Shown here: piece by piece, positions 29,533 through 60,651 of the stretch
How the letters are laid out: each line of letters starts with the position of its first letter
Position numbering within the stretch: position 1 is the first letter of the stretch
Assembly (NCBI GenBank): GCA_012845835.1
Contig: JABAKD010000028.1
Location: 10,817,741-10,881,740 of the forward strand
DNA: 64,000 bases
Source: Undaria pinnatifida
Lineage: Eukaryota; Sar; Phaeophyceae; Laminariales; Alariaceae
Direction of reading: 5' to 3'
Position numbers and translations under genes: made by a program
The notes under the pieces: model-generated
The model's database searches: none
Seen by the model: the letters and a program-made list of their open reading frames with translations, nothing else
What the model was told of the DNA's origin: nothing

Positions 29533-29964
29533 TGTGGAAGACAGGGTCGTAGATACCTATCGTAGATCGCGTACACGCATGCGCGAGAGGACACGTCATC
29601 GGTCAGGCAATACACGATCCCGGGTCGCGAACGGCGTCACCCGTCATAGACGGCGTTGACCCGTCCCCGGAAGGTCAGCCACCGAAAGATGATCCCGCCG
29701 CATGACGAAGGGCATATGCCCACCGTCACTCTAGCTCTGGCTTAGCATCTCCTTGCTACATATAAGAAAGAAAGGTTATCAGTCGCGTTCGCTGTTGAGA
29801 ACGATCGTCAAGGGACCTCAGCACCGCGACGCCCTCTCCGCTTCGACTTCAGCTCTGCGACGACCTCTCCGCTCCGACTACCGACCATCCGCGACGAGTA
29901 CCAGACCTCCGGGACCACCCTCACCACTTCGACTCCGGGACCCCGTGAGAGACCAGGTTCCATA
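29533..29964 (+). repeat. TRIM left LTR
   Basis: 432 bp. A TATA-like CTACATATAAG lies near 29756-29766 and may mark the element's promoter. Confidence 0.9.
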
Positions 29965-30187: not shown

Positions 30188-30619
30188 TGTGGAAGACAGG
30201 GTCGTAGATACCTATCGTAGATCGCGTACACGCATGCGCGAGAGGACACGTCATCGGTCAGGCAATACACGATCCCGGGTCGCGAACGGCGTCACCCGTC
30301 ATAGACGGCGTTGACCCGTCCCCGGAAGGTCAGCCACCGAAAGATGATCCCGCCGCATGACGAAGGGCATATGCCCACCGTCACTCTAGCTCTGGCTTAG
30401 CATCTCCTTGCTACATATAAGAAAGAAAGGTTATCAGTCGCGTTCGCTGTTGAGAACGATCGTCAAGGGACCTCAGCACCGCGACGCCCTCTCCGCTTCG
30501 ACTTCAGCTCTGCGACGACCTCTCCGCTCCGACTACCGACCATCCGCGACGAGTACCAGACCTCCGGGACCACCCTCACCACTTCGACTCCGGGACCCCG
30601 TGAGAGACCAGGTTCCATA
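30188..30619 (+). repeat. TRIM right LTR
   Basis: 432 bp, apparently identical to the left LTR, preceded by the polypurine tract at about 30172-30187. Confidence 0.9.
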
Positions 30620-49642: not shown

Positions 49643-49990
49643 TCATACTACATACAGAGAGTCCGTCGTCATCAAGCCGTCTTCTTGTGGACCCTCATTA
49701 CTACTATTATTATGCCGCTGGAGGGGCGCCGACACGTCGTCTTGGGTCACGTGATATGGGGGGATTTTTTTCGTGAAAGTGTTGAGCACGTACTGCGTCA
49801 ACCCATCCGGAAGGTACTTAGGCATGTCGCCGCGGTCGTGGGGGTTGGTGCAGAGCTTGCAGCGCTCGACAGAGACGCGGCAGTGCGCATCCGCGCCGGG
49901 CATGTCTGTGGGGAGGTCCAAATAGAGGAGTTTATCCCCCAGGGGGGAACCGCCTTATGTGTTGCTAGAGGGGCCGGGGCCAACAGCAAG
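49643..49990 (-). pseudogene. Pol C-terminal tail after the GPY module
   Basis: After WTGPYKILAVGP the frame changes and continues with LLYLDLPTDMPGADAHCRVS, VERCKLCTNPHDRGDMPKYL and PPYHVTQDDVS. The spaced Cys/His residues (RCKLCTNPHD) could bind metal. It stops at about 49643 in simple sequence. Confidence 0.65.
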
Positions 49991-50776
49991 GATCTTGTAC
50001 GGCCCTGTCCAACTTAGCGCGAATTTGATCTTGCGCGCCTTTGCATCCGTGCCGGCTTTCGCGCGTTGGCGAATAGTGGAGGCCGTACTATAAAGCCAAA
50101 CCCAATTACCCACAACGAAGTTGGGGACCTGGCGCAAAGCGTCCGAAACCGCTGAGTTTCGCCGTTCCGAACGCGAAACTGTTAAGGCATGCATCTCGCG
50201 AATAATATCGTTGGCGAGCTGTTGGCGTTCTGACGCCAGGTCGCAGTATGCGAGGTGGTCGCGGGCCAGGCCCTGATGGCCGGCGACCCCGGAGCGGTCG
50301 AAAACAATGAGAGGGAGGCGCCGAAGCCTGCCCATGTGAACCTCGTTGGGGGCCAGGCTAGTGCCGGTGCTGACCGAATTGTTGTAGGCGACGTCCACGT
50401 GCGACAACTGCGCATCCCAATCGTTTGGGCATTCGTTGACGATCATAGACATTTTTGGCCATTGTGTGGTTAACGCGCTCCACACCACCGTTACCGCTTG
50501 GATGGCAGGAGCTGGTGGCGATTTTTCGAACACCAAGAAGCTCATATACGACGTGGGAAAGCTTGGAGCTGAACTGGAGGCCGTTGTCCGATAGGATGCT
50601 ACGTGGACACTCCCAAAGGGGGATGTACCGGTTGATAAGGATGATGGCCGCGCCTTCAGCTGCAAATTCAGCGGCAGTGACGGCGACATGTCCGCACGAC
50701 GGCTAAAGCGGTCGGTATAAAGCAAAATATAGGTGTTACCCCGGGGCGTGACCGGCAATGGCCCAAAATAGTCCAC
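49955..50776 (-). pseudogene. Integrase catalytic core and GPY domain
   Basis: The first catalytic Asp is in MDYFGPLPVTPRGNTYILLY followed by TDRFSR. The second Asp (SDNGLQFSS) and the Glu (GGVERVNHTMA) lie in another frame about 50470-50610 and are exactly 35 residues apart, giving D,D35E. Two single-base indels, near 50690 and in an A run near 50452, account for the frame changes. The last part includes VPNFVVGNWVWLY and LSWTGPYKILAVGP, the GPY/F module typical of Ty3/gypsy integrases. Confidence 0.85.
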
Positions 50777-50829
50777 GCGTACCGCAATGCCCGGCCCCTG
50801 AGGGAGGGGAATCGAAATGACGGGTCATC

Positions 50830-51426
50830 AAACCGTCAGTCGCGGTGCCTTCCGCGCTTGGCACTTCAAGCAATGGCGCAACCACCATCTGGTGCATATG
50901 CTCCTTCCTGTCCACCAATACAAACGAGCATGTGAAGTGTGCGTGCCGTGCCTAGATGGCAGGAAGCAGTCGAATGGCAGGCTTGCATGATCCAAGGGCG
51001 CACGAATAGCGGCAGGTAAATACGGATTGGTTCGTCCCCCAAAAGGCAAGCCGCGCGTCCCGCAGGCCGTAAGGGGTAGTGGGCCGGGGTTGGACTACGG
51101 GCGAGGAGGACATTCTCCTCGTCGGTAGTATGGAGGCGGCCTTTGCCAGCGAGCTCCTGGGTCTCCGAGAAGAAGGGGCGCTGGTGTGAGGGGAAACGCG
51201 CTGAGACTTCGGTGAGCAAGGCCAATGGACGGCCGAGAAGAATGTATTGTATGGCGACGTAACACGTAGGCTCTGCACATTGCTCTCTCTCCCAGTCGGC
51301 GTGCGAATAACGCGCAGCGGAATCACCAAAATGTAGTTCGGCAGCAACGCCGAGGGCATCCAAATCGGCCGTAGGGGCGGAGGGGGACTCCTGAGGTGTC
51401 GAGAGCCCTAAAATCGGGACACCCAA
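50830..51426 (-). pseudogene. Integrase N-terminal H2C2 zinc-binding region
   Basis: This frame includes DWEREQCAEPTCYVAIQYIL, then SCHLGTARTLHML with the histidines. The rest of the finger, YWWTGRSICTRWWLRHCLKC and QARK, is in another frame at 50830-50920, so a frameshift separates the His and Cys pairs. Confidence 0.8.
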
Positions 51427-51434
51427 ACGCTTTC

Positions 51435-51880
51435 GCTAGGTCGCGGTCAGACGGGATCGATACCATCTGGAGAGGCGTTGGCGCTCGAGATGCGCCCAGG
51501 GCGGCAGCCAAAGGCAGCCGTAGGCGCGGAACGCGGCGGAGGGTCGACCCGAGAGGAAGAGGTCCGGGGAACCCTGCCGGGTCCGAAACCATAGTCAACG
51601 GTAGGTTGCGCGGCACCGGCCGCAGCGGTTGTTCTTCGGCGCGTCCGAGTGGAGATGCGACCCGTAGGCGGCAGTGCCACTGAAGCCTCCGATGGGGGCG
51701 TAGGGGCCCGCGGGGGCAAGTCTGGCGGAGTAGCCCCGGAGGGCACCACGGAAACCCGGAAGGAAAGTGGCGTCGGCGGCAGGCCAAAATGGTGCGTGGC
51801 CGAGGCTGTCATCACCGGTACCGCCGAAAGCAGAAACACGGGCGACGAATCTCCCGGTGGGAACAGAAAGGTCGTCAACC
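51435..51880 (-). pseudogene. Pol linker between RNase H and integrase
   Basis: A Pro/Ala/Ser-rich frame (PPDLPPRAPTPPSEASVALP) with no recognisable domain. Its position between RNase H and H2C2 makes it part of the polyprotein. Confidence 0.5.
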
Positions 51881-52378
51881 CTCATATGTAGCCAGTGTGC
51901 GCGAAAATCGCGGAATCAGTGGAGGTAAGGGGGAGAGCCCACCCAAGACAGCGCTATCTGGTTGGGGCACTAGCCCACCCAAGCTAATGCCGGGCACCGA
52001 TACGGAGGGGGTGAGCAGGCCGCAAGCCCTGACGAGGGATATGGCTTCATCGTCGACAGGGGTGAGGCGGCTAGAACCGCTGTGGTCGTGCTCAGTCGCC
52101 GGCTGTGGCAACCGCGAGAGGAAGTCAGCATTACCATTTGCGCTTCCGTTTCGGTAGTCAAGTGTATAGTCAAACGCGGTGAGATACTCGAGCCACCTCT
52201 GGATTTGCACGTTGTGGTCCCCAACTTTTCCGATATTTTCCAGAGCCTTTTGATCCGAGAAAACGCTAAACTTCGTATCCCAAAGATAGCCTCGAAGGCG
52301 CTTGATCGCCCATACGATGCTGCCTGCTTCCAAATCGAGCGGCGTGCAATGTGTTTCCGAGTCGAGGGTAGCGCGAGC
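51875..52378 (-). pseudogene. RNase H domain, N-terminally truncated
   Basis: LEAGSIVWAIKRLRGYLWDT keeps the acidic residue of the second motif. KFSVFSDQKALENIG keeps the third-motif Asp, and NGNADFLSRLPQ is the usual ADxLSR end. The first catalytic Asp is absent because the domain begins abruptly at the deletion junction near 52375. Confidence 0.85.
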
Positions 52379-52605
52379 ATGGCGAAGTCGAGTGTTGGAT
52401 CAGACCCGCAGCGAGGTACTGATTGAGGGTGGCGTCCACCTCTTTGACCAAAATCGTGTTGATGCGATGTGGTCGGCAGGTGACAGGCGCACTGCCCTCC
52501 GGTACCGAGATTTCGAAGGGCATCAGAGAGCAGGAGCCAAAATCCGTTTTGGAGCTGGAAAAAACATCCAGAAATTCGCAGAGAACGTCACCTGTTGCTC
52601 GATGG
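52370..52605 (-). pseudogene. Reverse transcriptase N-terminal remnant, core deleted
   Basis: LCEFLDVFSSSKTDFG, MPFEISVPEGSAPVTCRPHR and VDATLNQYLAAGLIQHSTSP are the classical opening of Ty3/gypsy RT. The sequence then jumps into the RNase H domain with none of the palm: no LDL, no YxDD. From family architecture roughly 250 residues are missing. Confidence 0.88.
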
Positions 52606-53335
52606 CCGCAGGGGTATACTCCGAGCTATGTAAGTCAAAAGTTGTTTCGCGCAGGTTTCTCGGCAGGCGGTGCCAGACGCGCAGGAACGGAACCCTTTGT
52701 TCGGGAGTCAAACCCTCGAGTAGGGCAGGTGAGGGCGAAGCCGTGGCTGCAGCTGCTGCGGGAGAGGGTTCCGAAATGGCCGCCATCTCAGACGCGTTCG
52801 TGGGCGGGGAGACGGCTGGTGCACTGTTCGTAATCGGGAGAACGGCAATGGGTGCGCGCATCAATGGAGCGTGGGCGACTCCCAGAAGGTCGCCGGCTCG
52901 AGGTCGGTCGCGCCACTGATGGGGAGGACCTGTCGCCCTGAAGCGGCAAAATGCTCTTCGGCAAGAAGAAGGTCCAGCTGGGGCAACATTTCGACGAGAT
53001 AGTGGCCTGTACGAGCTGGTAGGGCGTAAGTGCGGACCAAGTTAACAGCGAGCAGCTAAGGCTCGTCTGGCTAAGTGACGCGATCAGTGCCATCGTAACG
53101 GAGGTGGAATCCTGCGCCAGAGGTGAGGGGGTCGGGTACAGAAGCCGATGCACCCGTGGGGGCATGGTGAGACAGCGTCAGCTCCCCGAAAGCTCTCTGG
53201 TCAGAGGGGCGGGAAGGGAAAGAGCGGTAGGACTGCGTATTAAAACGCAACTATCGCGTCCCAGGAGCACCGCGTGTTGCATATCTGAAGGTGGAACAAC
53301 TCAGGCCCACACGGCGAGAGAGCTCGTCGGCTGTT
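52523..53335 (-). pseudogene. Pol region between protease and RT
   Basis: Interrupted frames include TPEQRVPFLRVWHRLPRNLR and Ala/Pro-rich spacer. No separate domain is recognised. Confidence 0.55.
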
Positions 53336-54888
53336 CAGTCCGGAAGAATTGGACGCTCAAGCGAACGCTCGTCGAAGTTCGTAGGGGAGCGGATTTGCCG
53401 AATCTCCCCCAGGAACCGAGGGGCAGAGTCCTGCTGGCAATTAACGGCGGCCGCCAACAGCATGTGCTCCAAGACGTCACGGCAGATGAGAGTCTGGGGG
53501 GAGCCAGTGTCTAGGAGCGCGACACAAACAAAAACCGTAGAGGCGGTGGTTCCACTATGCACGGTAATTTGGGAGGTAAAAAAGGCGTTGTCGAGCGCAA
53601 TCGTGCCACCGACGAGGCCCGGGCCGTGCTTGAGGAGCGAGGGCGTGTCCGCGAGGGTGGACGCGGCACAAGAGGCGACAGCCAGCACATCGGGGCTGTG
53701 GTCCGCTGGCGCGTCGGAAAAATGGGTCGAAAACTCTGAAGGAGGACCGGGGCAAGCACGTGCTGAAACCCGAAGGCGCGTCGGCGTCGCGGGGTTAGTC
53801 GGAGTGCAGAACTGCGGAGAAGAGGAGGGGTGTGCCAACTCGTCCGTATTGTGGCGAAGGAGGTCGCGGACGGTAGAAAGAGCCTGCCCGAGAAAGTTAT
53901 TTCCTCGCCACAAGTGGGGGTCATGGGCGTCGGGGTCGTTCGCCCGGAGGCCAATGCCCCGAACCTGGTCAAAAAGGCTGGGTTCAGGTAAAAGCTTGTT
54001 AGAACCAGTGCCTAACAGGTGGTGTTTCATCTCCGGGTTTTGCGAAAACTTCGCAAAAGCCCCAGCGAGAACGGCGTATCCGCGTTCCCGCTCCCAAATG
54101 GCATTGTCGAAACTCCGGACGCTCCGTCCGACGCGCTTGCGCGATTGGGGTTCCGACGTGCTCAGTATGAGCTCCAGTGCACGGTGGTCGTGGAAGAGGC
54201 GTGCCTTTTCGGCCATCATAAAGTGCTCTGCGCAAGAATAAGACACGTCATCGACGACAAACTCCAACGCTGTCCATTGCGAAAAAATGGAGGGGGGTTG
54301 CCAAAACAACACAACGTTTCCCGTGGAATAGTCGCGTGTATGGTTAAAATTTGAGGGGACCGGGCCATCGGAGGGTATGGTTGAGGCGCGCAGTGCAGCC
54401 CTGTGGGGGCACTGCGTCGCCGACGGGAACCGCGGGGTCGGTGTGACGGTCACCGGCGGTGGGGTGTTATCGCGCGTAGGCGAAACGTCGCCAGAAGTGA
54501 CTCTCTCTGAGCCCATCGATTGGGGGTCAACGGGGGCACGGAAATCGTAGCCAGTTTTGCTTGTCGAGAGGAGCGAGTCATCCGCGCGACGGCGGGCAGA
54601 TACCCCGGTTACGTTGACCGGAGGTTGTGAAGTCACCACGGGTTCGACGGGCAGTGTCGGGATCGCCTGTTCCACTGAGGCCGTGGAAGTCCGGAGGGGG
54701 TGCTCGTAGGCGCGCAAAGACGGAGCGCCTGCAGACTCTCCAGACCAATTTAAAAACGGGTCTCGGACGGGCGCCACTTGAGTGCCCGCCGGAAGATTTT
54801 TTGCCCTGTACCCACGCCTGAGGGTGTGGGCGGGGTAGCTAAGCTCGCTGCATACTCTGCGATAGGGAACAGACCAGAATGCTCACCG
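53335..54888 (-). CDS. NADAR domain fused to retroviral-type aspartic protease
   Basis: The frame is open from about 54888 to a stop at 53335. There is no convincing ATG, as expected inside a polyprotein. Numbering from the GTG at 54777, residues about 150-308 are a NADAR/YbiA (DUF1768) domain: VVLFWQPPSIFSQWTALEF, YSCAEHFMMAEKARLFHD, KRVGRSVRSFDNAIWERERG, FAKFSQNPEMKHHLLGTGSN and WRGNNFLGQALSTVRDLL. The conserved Glu of AEHFMMAEKA is present. The usual DxxWGIGL motif reads DQVRGIGL. Residues 423-426 are DTGS, the protease active site, in FVCVALLDTGSPQTLICRDV. Known NADAR proteins hydrolyse N-glycosidic bonds in ADP-ribose-linked substrates. A role here is inferred. Confidence 0.88.
53854..54330 (-). 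other. NADAR (YbiA-like) domain coding segment
   Basis: About 159 codons, matching the full length of stand-alone YbiA-type proteins, uninterrupted by stops or frameshifts although most of the element is damaged. Motif order runs FxxPPSxFSQW, YxCAEHFMMAEKA, KRxGRxVRxFD, FxKFSQNP, LLGTG, DxxxGIGL and WxGxNFLG. The Trp-to-Arg change in the WGIGL motif may affect activity. Confidence 0.88.
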
Positions 54889-55475: not shown

Positions 55476-55585
55476 TGCCGGCGGTGGACGCGCGAGGGGT
55501 GCCGCACCACTGCCGGAGAGTTAGTTTCCAGTGTGGAAAGTGCTGGGTTGACGCGCATTTGGATTACTATTGTTCGATGGACCAA
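55370..55585 (-). pseudogene. Gag spacer with Cys/His cluster
   Basis: The frame contains SRVHRRHCQGNKYIYRKMSV followed by CHACQAPS. The spaced His/Cys residues could be a decayed zinc-binding motif. It overlaps the linker frame, so which frame was coding is uncertain. Confidence 0.4.
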
Positions 55586-56363
55586 GGCTCATGTTAGGGG
55601 GGTTAGTCGTCGCGGTGGGCGAGGGCGGGACTGATTGGTGCACCGCTATGGCTGAGCTATTGGTGCTTTTACCGTAGCCGCCGTCAGACCCCTGCTGTGA
55701 ATATCCGGAACGCGCGTCTTGCGAATTGTGACCGAAGTTGTGTGACTGACCCTGGCCGTGTTGGGGGCCTGACCGGTGGCGGCGGCCCTTGCGAGAGCTG
55801 GTTCCGGGTTCTCCTGTTTTGTTGCGGCGGCGGTAGCGCAGCATGCGTTCTTGCCAGCGGCGGGACGCGGCGCCGTTGTCCCCGAGCTGACCAAGCTCGG
55901 GGTTGATGCACCCGCTAGCATTAACAAAGGGGTGCGAGCACTGTGTAAAAGAATGTGACGTGTCGTGGCATTTAAGTCACTGACCTTGGTTATCACGAAG
56001 GGCTGCCGCGCGTGCGGTCGGTGAGAGGAGACTGTTCCATAGAGGAGGGTCATCGGTCGCAAATGTATCACTAACAGTGCAAACTTCATCACAATGCGCA
56101 AGCGGCCAGTGCCAGTACGACGTGGATGAGACCCAGGGGTCGGTGGAATCTTGTGAAACATTCATTACTACTGGGTTGCGTTGCGAACTCGTCGCCCAAG
56201 CAGAAGTCTGCGATGTGGCGCGTCCCTGCCCACGGACTAGGGCGGCAGGCGGGGGACCCGACGGGGTGGAAACACGTTCCCCTGATACCGCAGATATGAA
56301 AATAATTCTGTGGCATTTATGGCAGGCGTCTTTTGAGTCGCAAGGGTACCCAAAGCTAACCAC
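55521..56363 (-). pseudogene. Gag C-terminal part with CCHC knuckle
   Basis: The frame from 56363 runs to a TGA at 55979-55977 and continues immediately as LKCHDTSHSFTQCSHPF, then a basic region (MLRYRRRNKTGEPGTSSRKG). If the TGA codon was originally Cys, the motif is C-x2-C-x4-H-x4-C, the canonical nucleocapsid knuckle. The mutation therefore hits its first cysteine. The basic Gly/Ser/Asn-rich tail is typical of nucleocapsid. Confidence 0.75.
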
Positions 56364-57139
56364 ATTGCATCAATCGCATCAAAAGGCTGAGGACGAATTG
56401 CCAGCTCTCCAGGGTACAAACTAGGCATGAGCTGAGGACACTGCTCGTTTACGCTAAGAAGCACAACCTCCGGTACCAGCCCCAACCCTGGCGCCAACGC
56501 GCGCTCGCTGCCCGTCATCCCCGAAACAACCAACCGAAAAGCGCGGTAGTAAGCCGCGCAAGGGGTGCCGTTGGGCACGCCAAAATTATGGAGCTCGCTG
56601 AGAGCAGACGCCGCGTCTCCGTTGTCAAACTGCCGGCTCGGCACTTGGAGGAGAAGGTCAACAGCCGCCGGACCGGAATCTCCTCGGTTAATTGCTCGCG
56701 AGACCTGGCCAAAAATGTCATCAATGACGGTGTTTAGGGCGGGGGCGGACGGTTTGTCAACTTTGATAGCACGCCCGACAGCTCGGTGGAGGGCGCGTTC
56801 CCACCCGGGGATACAAACCGGGGATTTTAGGCCGTCTCTACTGCAGCGCGAATCGAAAATCACGAGGATCACGGTTTCGGCTCCCTTGACCGAGCGCATC
56901 AGTTGTAGGGCGGCGAGAGCCTGATTGGGGTTCGTGGGGGGCAGGGGTGTGATGCGCGCTACCTTGCGCGTGTCAAGATTGACGTACTTGGACGTGACGG
57001 CCTGTATATGTTCGGCTTCGAACAGGGCGGTGGCCGCGTCTACGGAGGCCTGTCGATCGCGGCCGAGAGCGGATGACAACGGCTTCGTGCGTTTGCCAGA
57101 AATCTTGAAAAAAAGTAACCTCTCTGTAGAGGAGGCCAC
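56237..57139 (-). pseudogene. Gag capsid-like region
   Basis: A 300-codon open frame including LLFFKISGKRTKPLSSALGR, IDDIFGQVSRAINRGDSGPA, SALSELHNFGVPNGTPCAAY and AAYYRAFRLVVSGMTGSERA. It is mostly helical in appearance. The Gag assignment rests on position upstream of the knuckle and on composition, not on a clear family match. The frame changes near 56270 into that of 56363-55977. Confidence 0.6.
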
Positions 57140-57344
57140 ATCGGGCAGAGACGGGACTTGCCTTGTGGGGTTGCACCACCTTGACGTCAGGAGGAGATGG
57201 CCAATGTCCCCCCCCCTTCGAAGGGTCGGAGGGTGAGCCCGCGGTGGAGAAACCTGGCCGTCCTTCCGAGTGGTGGCATCTTTTGCGTCCTGCCGACGAC
57301 GCCATGTGTAATATGATCAAGGGGCTGTTACAGACACAGGCCAC
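57140..57344 (-). pseudogene. Probable Gag N-terminus, frameshifted at a poly-G run
   Basis: MASSAGRKRCHHSEGRPGFS begins at about 57303 and runs to a G10 run (C10 on plus at about 57209-57219). Past that run the frame leading into the capsid-like region is a different one, which suggests a homopolymer indel. Confidence 0.45.
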
Positions 57345-58175: not shown

Positions 58176-59703
58176 TTACGCTAACTTGTGACGGCCATTG
58201 GAAGGCCCACAATCTTCAAGACGATGATGGCCAGACCCAGACCTCAGTTTCTTGGGCATGACTCCCCCCCTCCCTCCCTCTCCCTTCCCCCTCCCCCCTT
58301 CCCCCCTTCCCCCCCGCTTCTCTCCCCCCGGTCGCTTAGAAATGCCGACGGTGGATGGCGCTGCCGCGGCCTTTGCGTGTCGCTCTGCAGCTCTGCATCT
58401 CTCCGTGTCATGCCATTTCCGCATGAATGACCCTGCTCCGTCATCTACCCGTCAAAACCATCTGCCTGCCCTCTGAGCATCTCTCCGCCACCCTTCGAAC
58501 TTCATTCCAAAGACATATCCTCCTTCAGGTGGACCATCCAGTCCTTTTCTTGCCCCCCTGAGTAGCCCTTACCCCCAACAAGCTCCCCAAACATCACCCT
58601 CTGTGGCAGACGCTCCCCCCCCATACGTGCTACGAATCCCGCAAACAACATCCTCCGTTTGCACACTATCGCTTGTATGCTCTCGGAAGCTGTCTTAGCA
58701 AGCGCGTCGGCGTACGATAGGGTGTGGTCGTCGCGCTTCCGTTTCCGTCATCTGAGGCATCGGAGGAGCGTGGAGTGGTGAACCCGTCGTAGCCTGTCAT
58801 AGTCAGGCTTGTTCGGCCTCCACGTCATACAACCGCAGAGTAGTGTCTCGATCACCTCGGCTTTCAGCAACCGCACCTTCAACCGCAAGCGCACACCCGG
58901 GCGATCATAGATTTCCATCTTGTATTGCTGGAAACATGCCCAGGCCCTCTAAAGACGCCGCGTTATCTCGATGTTGAGGTCTCTGTTCGCGCTGAGGTCT
59001 CTGTATGCGCTGCCCACCCAAGTGCACAAACCCGGTCGTTTGTCTGTATACCTGGCCGGCTGCATTGGTGGCGAACGACACCGACACCTTTCCGCCATCT
59101 TTAGTCTGCAGGCACATGATGTCCGTTTTGGCCTCGGAAACCGTAAGCCCGAACGCCGAGCGCGCCGTCACGATCACCGTTATCATCTTCTCCAACCCTT
59201 CTGATGATCGCGACGAGATGCTCGCATCGTCAGGGTGCGGCATACCCCACAACATCTGCGCCTCCTTCTCCTCCTCTCCCACCCGCGCGTCGAATTTGCC
59301 TGTGCGTGGTGTGCCATTCTTCTCACCTTTCTCCTTTCGTAGGAGCTGCACCATGTTGTCCGTGATGGCTGCATCAGAGAGGAAGCGTTTCTCGGCCACA
59401 CGCAGTACCGCCGTGAAAAACATGTTGAACAGCAGTGGCGCGAGCACGACCCCTCGCCTGAGACCTTGCCCCACTTCGAACTTCTCCGAGCACTCTCCAT
59501 AATCCAACTGCATGCATGCTTGCATGCCGTCGTGAAATTGGCGGATGACGACTAGCATTCTCGGTGGCACACCAAAACGAGCAAGGACATCCCACAGAAG
59601 AGTTCGGTCGACGGAGTCATAGTATAGGCTATACGCTTTGGCGAGGTCCATAAAGCACAAGTACATGGGGGTGTCCTTCTTCCGCGCCAGTTCTTGCGGT
59701 CGT
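58176..59703 (-). pseudogene. LINE (non-LTR) reverse transcriptase, 5'-truncated
   Basis: The frame starts in QELARKKDTPMYLCFMDLAK and continues YDSVDRTLLWDVLARFGVPP, FEVGQGLRRGVVLAPLLFNM and FGLTVSEAKTDIMCLQ, all hallmarks of LINE-type RT. The catalytic YADD reads HPDD (GMPHPDDASISS). AKAYDSVDR carries a 4-residue insertion (AYSLYYDSVDR). Later frames carry the C-terminal part (RPNKPDYDRLRRVHHS) and an end near 58176 with RKWHDTERCRAAERHAKAAA and LEDCGPSNGRHKLA. Endonuclease and ORF1 are missing. It is dead by truncation and frameshift. Confidence 0.88.
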
Positions 59704-59800
59704 CGTACTTAAGCACTACTGGTATCCAGTTAGATGCTGCATGGTATAGGGGGGAAAACATGGTCGGATTTTCCCGTCATTGTTTGTATCTTCGATTTTT

Positions 59801-60651
59801 CCAGGGTAGTCCTCGGGAAAATTCCCGAGGTAATTTTCCCGTGCTGTACGTCGGTCCCGGTACTCGGCGGAATACCGTCATATTTGGGCAAACCGTGTAC
59901 CGCCAAAGGCGGTACCGTCAAAAATCGAAAAACCGTCAACCGTTTAAAAAGTACCGTCATTTTGCAGCACCGCCATAAAAGTACCGTCAAATAAGCGAAG
60001 TACCGTTTCCCGTTTAGAAAAACCGTCATATTCAGAACCGTCAAAGATTGTAGGGTGATGGTTTTCATTGAATGTTTTCATGTTTTAGGTTTTATTGTTT
60101 TTTTGTTTACAGTAGTAGTATTGTTTTATTGTCTTAATTTGGTGCTAAATGTCTAAATGTTGTTTCGCGTGAGGCTGGTGAGTTTGTCAGCTTGACGGTT
60201 CGACGATTAGTCTAGCCTCTATTCGTCCGTTCTATATAGGTATGCAGGAACATCAGCGGGGTGGTGCCGGCATGCTTGATCGCCGCCCGGCAGGTACTGT
60301 CAAGTATTTCGTCATTCATTCGTAATTCTGTATTTCTCAGTGGCGGAACCGTCATATTTCAGTACCCTCAAAAAAGTACCGTTAAATTTGGCAGTACCGG
60401 GACCGGTACCGACGTTTTGCAGTACCGCCAAAAACGTACCGTCAAATATCGAAAAACCGTCTACCGTCTAGAAAATACCGTCACTTTTCGATACCGCCGA
60501 AAAAGTACCGTCAAATTCGGCGATACCGTGTACCGCCAAATGTGGTACCGTGAGAAATCGAAATACCGTCAACCGTTTGAAAAGTACCGTCATTTCGCAA
60601 TACCGTCCGATCTGGTACCTTAAAAAAAAACGGTACCGAGGACTACCCTGG
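59801..60651 (+). mobile_element. 851-bp TIR element packed with TACCGTCAAA repeats
   Basis: CCAGGGTAGTCCTCGG (59801-59816) is perfectly inverted at 60636-60651. ATTTTT flanks both sides (59795-59800 and 60652-60657). Two internal blocks (59860-60055 and 60340-60635) consist of imperfect GTACCGTCAAA and ACCGCCAAA units in head-to-tail order. The central ~280 bp is T-rich and unique. No transposase is encoded. Confidence 0.88.

Follow-up and report, generated by a model that had tools for sequence, protein, structure and literature searches.

The Pol polyprotein of a Ty3/gypsy retrotransposon lineage in Undaria pinnatifida is shown here to begin with a NADAR domain of the YbiA type, which is followed by the protease, reverse transcriptase (RT), RNase H and integrase. 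A member of this lineage is present in the window, which is the whole stretch of 64,000 nucleotides that was analysed, and many other copies are found in the same genome. That the domain is a NADAR and forms a kept part of the lineage is close to certain. Taken as a whole, the findings are best explained by a packaged ADP-ribose (N-)glycosidase that would act on the nucleic acid of the element, a reading drawn from sequence to which a probability of roughly 0.4 is given. Bacteria and phages are known to use ADP-ribosylation of nucleic acids for attack and defence, and the keeping of a NADAR under selection by a selfish eukaryotic element suggests a possible part for such chemistry in eukaryotic genome conflict as well. 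In 2025, a Gypsy lineage of Ectocarpus was described whose Pol carries a NADAR of the YbiA family N-terminally, for example in Gypsy-12_Ec32 (PMC12477816). This publication lowers the surprise of the combination and has overtaken the remark in a preliminary description of the window that no such domain was known in Ty3/gypsy elements. Among the papers listed on NADAR and on retrotransposons, the combination was recognised in PMC12477816 only, the other papers being judged mostly by title or the start of the abstract. Four points go beyond the passages of PMC12477816 considered here: the test for selection, the comparison of several families within another genome, the position ahead of the protease that the domain holds in nearly all sampled relatives, and its relationship to NADARs encoded by standalone algal genes.

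The N-terminal region of Pol in the window is an open frame of 515 codons on the minus strand (53338..54882), which holds the NADAR domain and the start of the protease. The domain occupies frame residues 193-343 (53854..54306, minus strand), and the profile search that had been proposed for its recognition gave matches in both Pfam and TIGRFAM models. PF08719 is matched with an E value of 1.1e-38 (133.5 bits against a cut-off of 35.1) over profile positions 2-163 of 163, which is the whole domain, and TIGR02464 with an E value of 7e-35 (120.5 against 73.7 bits) over positions 2-152 of 153. In a sequence search, the frame also recovered the solved NADARs 8bau (E 5.8e-12) and 2b3w, the E. coli YbiA (E 7.6e-5). 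The 8bau entry is titled 'NADAR domain-containing protein', and the protein is presumably from Phytophthora nicotianae. Judged by these matches, the NADAR identity of the domain is far beyond chance. The aspartic protease motif DTGS (53500..53511, minus strand) starts at frame residue 458, which is 114 residues after the end of the NADAR match in the same frame, and it is also located 3' of the NADAR in relatives. The preliminary description, which had reported a NADAR in one frame with a DTGS protease about 115 residues further on, was correct in this, and the coordinates and motifs that it quoted are present in the frame.

Residues that matter for NADAR activity have been described in other systems. 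In the NADAR of E. coli C7, E88, K95 and D171 are reported to be relevant for the hydrolysis of guanine-ADP-ribose and for rescue from DarT1; E88 and K95 are needed for this rescue, and E88A has little effect in vitro (PMC11543638). The YbiA family has a Glu on the last strand in place of the Asp, which is found in the BC4488 type, and a His is found in the phage type (PMC11125620). In the window frame, Glu219 of the CAEHF motif (54226..54228, E45 in the domain row) and Lys226 of AEKA (54205..54207, K52), both on the minus strand, correspond in the alignment to the Glu and Lys that are catalytic in NADARs, whose roles are taken from PMC11543638, and their spacing of 7 is like that of E88 and K95 in the C7 enzyme. 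Glu300 of LLPEPS (53983..53985, minus strand, E126) is assigned, by sequence alone, to the last-strand position that is a Glu in the YbiA family (PMC11125620). In the alignment, these three residues are still present despite alterations at 4 of 47 positions with a conservation of 90% or more across 65 relatives, which were picked from 120 listed of 202 matches. The alterations are Q46H and, after E126, A127P, P129L and W134R. None of these 47 columns is changed in family B, and 3 of them are changed in family C. E. coli YbiA and 8bau belong to the same domain family, and their catalytic Glu, Lys and last-strand Glu align with those of the element NADAR; these proteins are standalone enzymes, whereas the element NADAR is part of a polyprotein.

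The copy in the window is a dead, degraded family-A member of the NADAR-bearing Ty3/gypsy lineage. Counted from the first residue of DTGS, the 515-codon frame runs for 58 residues and then stops, and a change of frame is observed at about 53,410 in alignments of the window to public relatives. A piece of family-B Pol, which begins just after the protease start when mapped on the window, has its residues 1-347 at 53399-52374 in three frames, residues 641-833 at 52378-51799 and residues 990-1575 at 51426-49685 in more than one frame. No counterpart of residues ~348-640 is present in the window, where the gap falls at ~52374-52378, and this missing stretch includes the whole RVT_1 match (353-511) and the YLDD motif (459) of family-B Pol. 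The remnants on the minus strand consist of Gag in two frames (55524..57163, 47% identical to residues 321-856 of the family-B Gag frame), an N-terminal stub of RT (52374..52592), of which the core is gone at ~52374-52378, RNase H (51878..52399, Pfam RT_RNaseH E 7.4e-12) and integrase in several frames (49685..51426, ~60% identical to family-B Pol over the two longest stretches). It had been proposed that RT, RNase H and integrase of the same element follow the protease; this holds for RNase H and integrase, which are found there as remnants in other frames, and fails for RT, since its core is absent. A complete element in the window was considered and is ruled out by the absent RT core and the shifted frames. 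No LTR pair was found in the window, nine other long frames gave no Pfam match at E up to 0.01, and no RNA families or tRNAs were found in it.

The architecture of the element was read from separate pieces of two better-preserved family-B copies. The order in this family is a frame with a CCHC knuckle (CLNCHEDTHSLRNC), a stop codon, and Pol with NADAR, DTGS, RVT_1, RNase H, H2C2 and rve. The CCHC-knuckle frame, which has no Pfam match, is taken for Gag, and the N-terminal extension of Pol also lacks a Pfam match. The family-B NADAR is matched in Pfam with E 4.6e-51, and the protease is represented by the DTGS motif and a weak Ty3 peptidase match (E 0.34). The other Pfam matches are RVT_1 (E 5.5e-27), RNase H (E 2.1e-30), the integrase zinc domain (E 1.6e-12) and rve (E 8.1e-8). 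The order of protease, RT, RNase H and integrase is present in the pieces of the two family-B copies and in the window remnants. The nearest solved structure to the family-B RT is the Ty3 RT 4ol8 (E 1.8e-67, the best of 45 distinct sequences), and by its sequence the lineage is Ty3/gypsy. The Ectocarpus lineage, compared by description only, likewise has the NADAR at the N-terminus of Pol; a putative C-terminal chromodomain is reported for it (PMC12477816), for which Pfam gave no match here, and the copy described here is dead and belongs to a genome of 511 Mb. The searches for a chromodomain covered a family-B copy (L038:2701-5286), with no Pfam match besides the integrase domains at E up to 1, and window positions 49649-49954, with no Pfam match at E up to 10.

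The likeness among four family-B 3' ends ceases after ...TTTAACA or ...TTTCACA, and a 3' end of ~270 bases, TGTTAAG...TTAACA, is common to the copies. The TGTTAAG located ~270 bases before the 3' end suggests a candidate LTR. Comparison of 5' with 3' pieces, made for two family-B copies and for a third, revealed no 5' partner; for the first two it gave one 38-base match, outside the shared part.

Related elements are abundant in the same genome, which was searched as 511 Mb in 68 contigs. The frame as query gave at least 94 matches from 84 scored candidates, a standalone algal NADAR at least 150 matches from 150 scored, and a family-C piece at least 103 matches from 97 scored, with overlap between the three match lists. 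In addition, at least 41 matches from 40 scored candidates, with 95-100% identity, were obtained with the family-B 3' region. The search for related elements that had been suggested earlier thus returned many copies in at least three families, named A (the window copy), B and C, two of which have open frames of about 2,370-2,470 codons. In family B, nine places have a frame that stays open over 2473 codons and shares 52-53% identity with the window frame; in family C, five places have one of 2371 codons. Among the places listed for the frame query, the whole 1-515 span is found without a stop elsewhere only in those nine.

The NADAR domain is also found in nearly all public relatives that have room for it. 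Relatives were collected by a protein search with residues 315-600 of P0007, which represent the protease side without the NADAR. The search gave 89 relatives, of which 71 have 130 residues or more ahead of the protease region; the other 18, with fewer, were left out of the NADAR count. The preliminary description had asked whether the NADAR is always between Gag and protease; a NADAR is present in 69 of the 71, and it is upstream of the protease in 69 of 69, in a sample where many relatives are near copies of each other. No NADAR match was observed in the 160 residues upstream of the protease in P0061 or in the 581 residues upstream of the protease region in P0106. The latter suggests that a relative can do without the domain, which may be dispensable in the wider lineage. 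P0106 also has DSGS in place of DTGS at the protease motif.

Comparison of dN/dS across copies, as had been proposed, indicates purifying selection on the family-B NADAR. Among 19 family-B copies, the pN/pS of the NADAR is 0.22 (bootstrap 0.10-0.47; 29 variable codons), compared with 0.20 for the protease start (0.00-0.69; 9 variable codons), 0.57 for the N-extension (0.30-1.14) and 0.51 for the linker (0.19-1.54), the range of the NADAR overlapping those of the linker and the protease start. These copies are not all intact, with open frames from 1,007 codons up and a stop inside the match in two of them (L016 and L024); none of the 19 has a stop in the NADAR. Between the window and family B, dN/dS is 0.138 for the NADAR (0.07-0.24), 0.51 for the N-extension (0.30-0.76), 0.28 for the protease start, 0.26 for the linker (0.14-0.47), 0.18 for the protease-RT spacer, 0.27 and 0.14 for the Gag parts (0.14 for the C-part), 0.03 for the RT stub, 0.07 for RNase H and 0.09 for the integrase C-part, and these ratios are rough because most dS values between families A and B exceed 1. 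The integrase zinc and core parts were left out, as dS was infinite and overlapping matches from different frames were mixed. The NADAR value is like those of the Gag C-part and the protease-RT spacer and well above those of the RT stub and RNase H. The NADAR is clearly constrained, more strongly than the N-extension and more weakly than RT and RNase H, while its ranges overlap those of the linker and protease start. In 11 family-A copies, the pooled pN/pS is 0.74 for the NADAR and 0.85-0.98 for the other parts, as expected because these are mostly dead copies.

In the preferred reading, the NADAR would be made within Gag-Pol as an active ADP-ribose (N-)glycosidase and packaged in the particle, where it would travel with the RNA and RT and would perhaps be cut free by the adjacent protease. 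The likely substrate would be ADP-ribose on guanine of the RNA or cDNA of the element, or a related ADP-ribose derivative, and template and product would be kept clean despite host (or damage-borne) ADP-ribosylation. Retroviral dUTPase, an accessory enzyme of nucleic-acid housekeeping, can be seen as an analogue. From the residues described above, the NADAR in well-preserved copies is probably catalytically active; an accessory role, in which it would strip ADP-ribose from RNA or cDNA of the element, is put forward tentatively, by analogy. The kept active-site residues would be compatible with the protection of cDNA or RNA from ADP-ribosylation that had been suggested earlier, and the authors of the Ectocarpus study guessed that the NADAR processes RNA intermediates (PMC12477816). 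Replication polyproteins of RNA viruses, whose replication is unrelated to that of the element, can likewise hold an ADP-ribose-related domain, a NADAR or macrodomain (PMC9503650). The copies with open frames make the role testable with the purified domain.

It is also conceivable, though somewhat less likely, that the NADAR acts on free ADP-ribose, NAD-derived metabolites or signals, or damaged riboflavin intermediates and not on nucleic acid, by which it would counter a host signal or help metabolism in the particle-forming cell. Riboflavin intermediates are also acted on by NADAR/YbiA proteins, and the TIGR02464 model that the domain matches above its cut-off is that of the 'riboflavin biosynthesis intermediates N-glycosidase'. 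For viral NADARs, soluble ADP-ribose derivatives, by-products of RNA processing and host-made macromolecular adducts have been argued as substrates, and the first two might be preferred (PMC9503650). However, linkage to Gag-Pol would keep the NADAR with the element RNA, which an enzyme of diffusible metabolites would not need, and guanosine-ADP-ribose was hydrolysed by all NADAR/YbiA proteins tested in PMC11125620. Since constraint on the NADAR alone does not prove catalysis, the domain might instead be kept for nucleic-acid or ADP-ribose binding or for the spacing of Gag and protease, with no need of catalysis. This is rather improbable. Among 70 aligned relatives, with gap rows left out, 31 of 33 keep the catalytic Glu, 50 of 50 keep the Lys and 64 of 68 keep the last-strand Glu, which speaks against it. 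The view that a NADAR gene, from the host or from bacteria, was inserted just once and without function in a single retrotransposon copy would fit the broken state of the window copy and is dismissed on account of the many copies in three families, the public relatives, the Ectocarpus lineage and the purifying selection.

The acquired enzyme domain that the preliminary description proposed is real; it precedes the protease in 69 of the 71 relatives with enough room and shows purifying selection. These results support a working role for it in the element and speak against a one-off insertion. The window copy itself is incomplete.

The origin of the element NADARs was studied in a tree of 78 chosen rows, which included 31 of 80 loci, 22 proteins taken for bacterial (most of them nameless), 18 element rows, 3 standalone algal rows and 4 viral-contig rows, the latter used as the root for drawing. 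Seven of the 18 element rows (P0018, P0022, P0116, P0119, P0135, P0153 and P0161) were labelled by their closeness to protease-bearing rows. All 3 standalone algal rows and 17 of the 18 element rows form one clade with a support of 97/97, among the rows taken for bacterial. The fork of this clade, which has no resolved branching, also holds the Planctomycetota rows P0122, P0143 and P0144, Myxococcota (Nannocystis, Polyangia) and nameless rows. The family-C NADAR is on a long branch outside this clade and has no resolved place. In PMC12477816, blastp matches outside Ectocarpus were nearly all bacterial and horizontal transfer was suggested, with which the bacterial surroundings of the element NADARs in the tree agree. 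An element-only clade without family C that excludes the standalone genes was not rejected (p-AU 0.33), nor was a clade of all element rows with the standalone genes (p-AU 0.063), and both orders of acquisition, element first or host first, would fit these topology tests. A more far-reaching proposal is that the NADAR is a packaged de-ADP-ribosylase that answers host ADP-ribosylation of reverse-transcription intermediates, and that NADARs were exchanged between elements and standalone algal genes, by capture or domestication, after a single acquisition from bacterial relatives of Planctomycetota or Myxococcota; this would be a long shot.

Of the near standalone NADARs, the eukaryotic ones that bear a name come from Pylaiella littoralis (P0124) and Ectocarpus fasciculatus (P0137) only. 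Their proteins are in the same supported clade as the 17 element NADARs and differ from the element in being short, with 248 and 227 residues, respectively, and without protease or RT. Both have a Cys/His-rich N-terminus (PGC...PCY...YC...HA) with no Pfam match, which is perhaps a zinc module. Many places in the genome searched here match residues ~68-228 of P0124 in frames of ~200-480 codons, the match ending before the end of the domain. A further NADAR-like stretch, with one stop and 50% identical to P0124, is located ~1.8 kb left of the window on the minus strand (C35:10815479-10815952). A stress-induced DUF1768 protein of Ectocarpus, Esi0017_0056, has been described as well (PMC7922944). 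Retrotransposon capture of a NADAR has also been reported in the Tx1 LINEs of Crassostrea gigas, which have it in ORF1 and which, unlike the element described here, are non-LTR elements with a divergent domain (PMC12477816). NADAR-like stretches were found in 654 phage records at E up to 1e-5, all of them less than 60% identical. In P0026, P0027, P0028, P0029 and P0031, which are probably bacterial and have 519-576 residues, the NADAR is at the N-terminus; P0029 shows weak sigma-70-like matches beyond the NADAR, an unusual fusion.

Other features were observed in the window. A frame of 267 codons on the minus strand (58908-59708), which adjoins the Gag side of the element, has an RVT_1 match (E 6.5e-12) and is probably part of another, perhaps non-LTR, retroelement. 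A 100-base unit rich in TACCGTCA recurs in diverged form at 59873-60605, where its copies share 61% and 86% identity with the reference copy. A set of short tandem arrays is found twice, at 29814-29915 and 30469-30570, 655 bases apart, which suggests a duplication.
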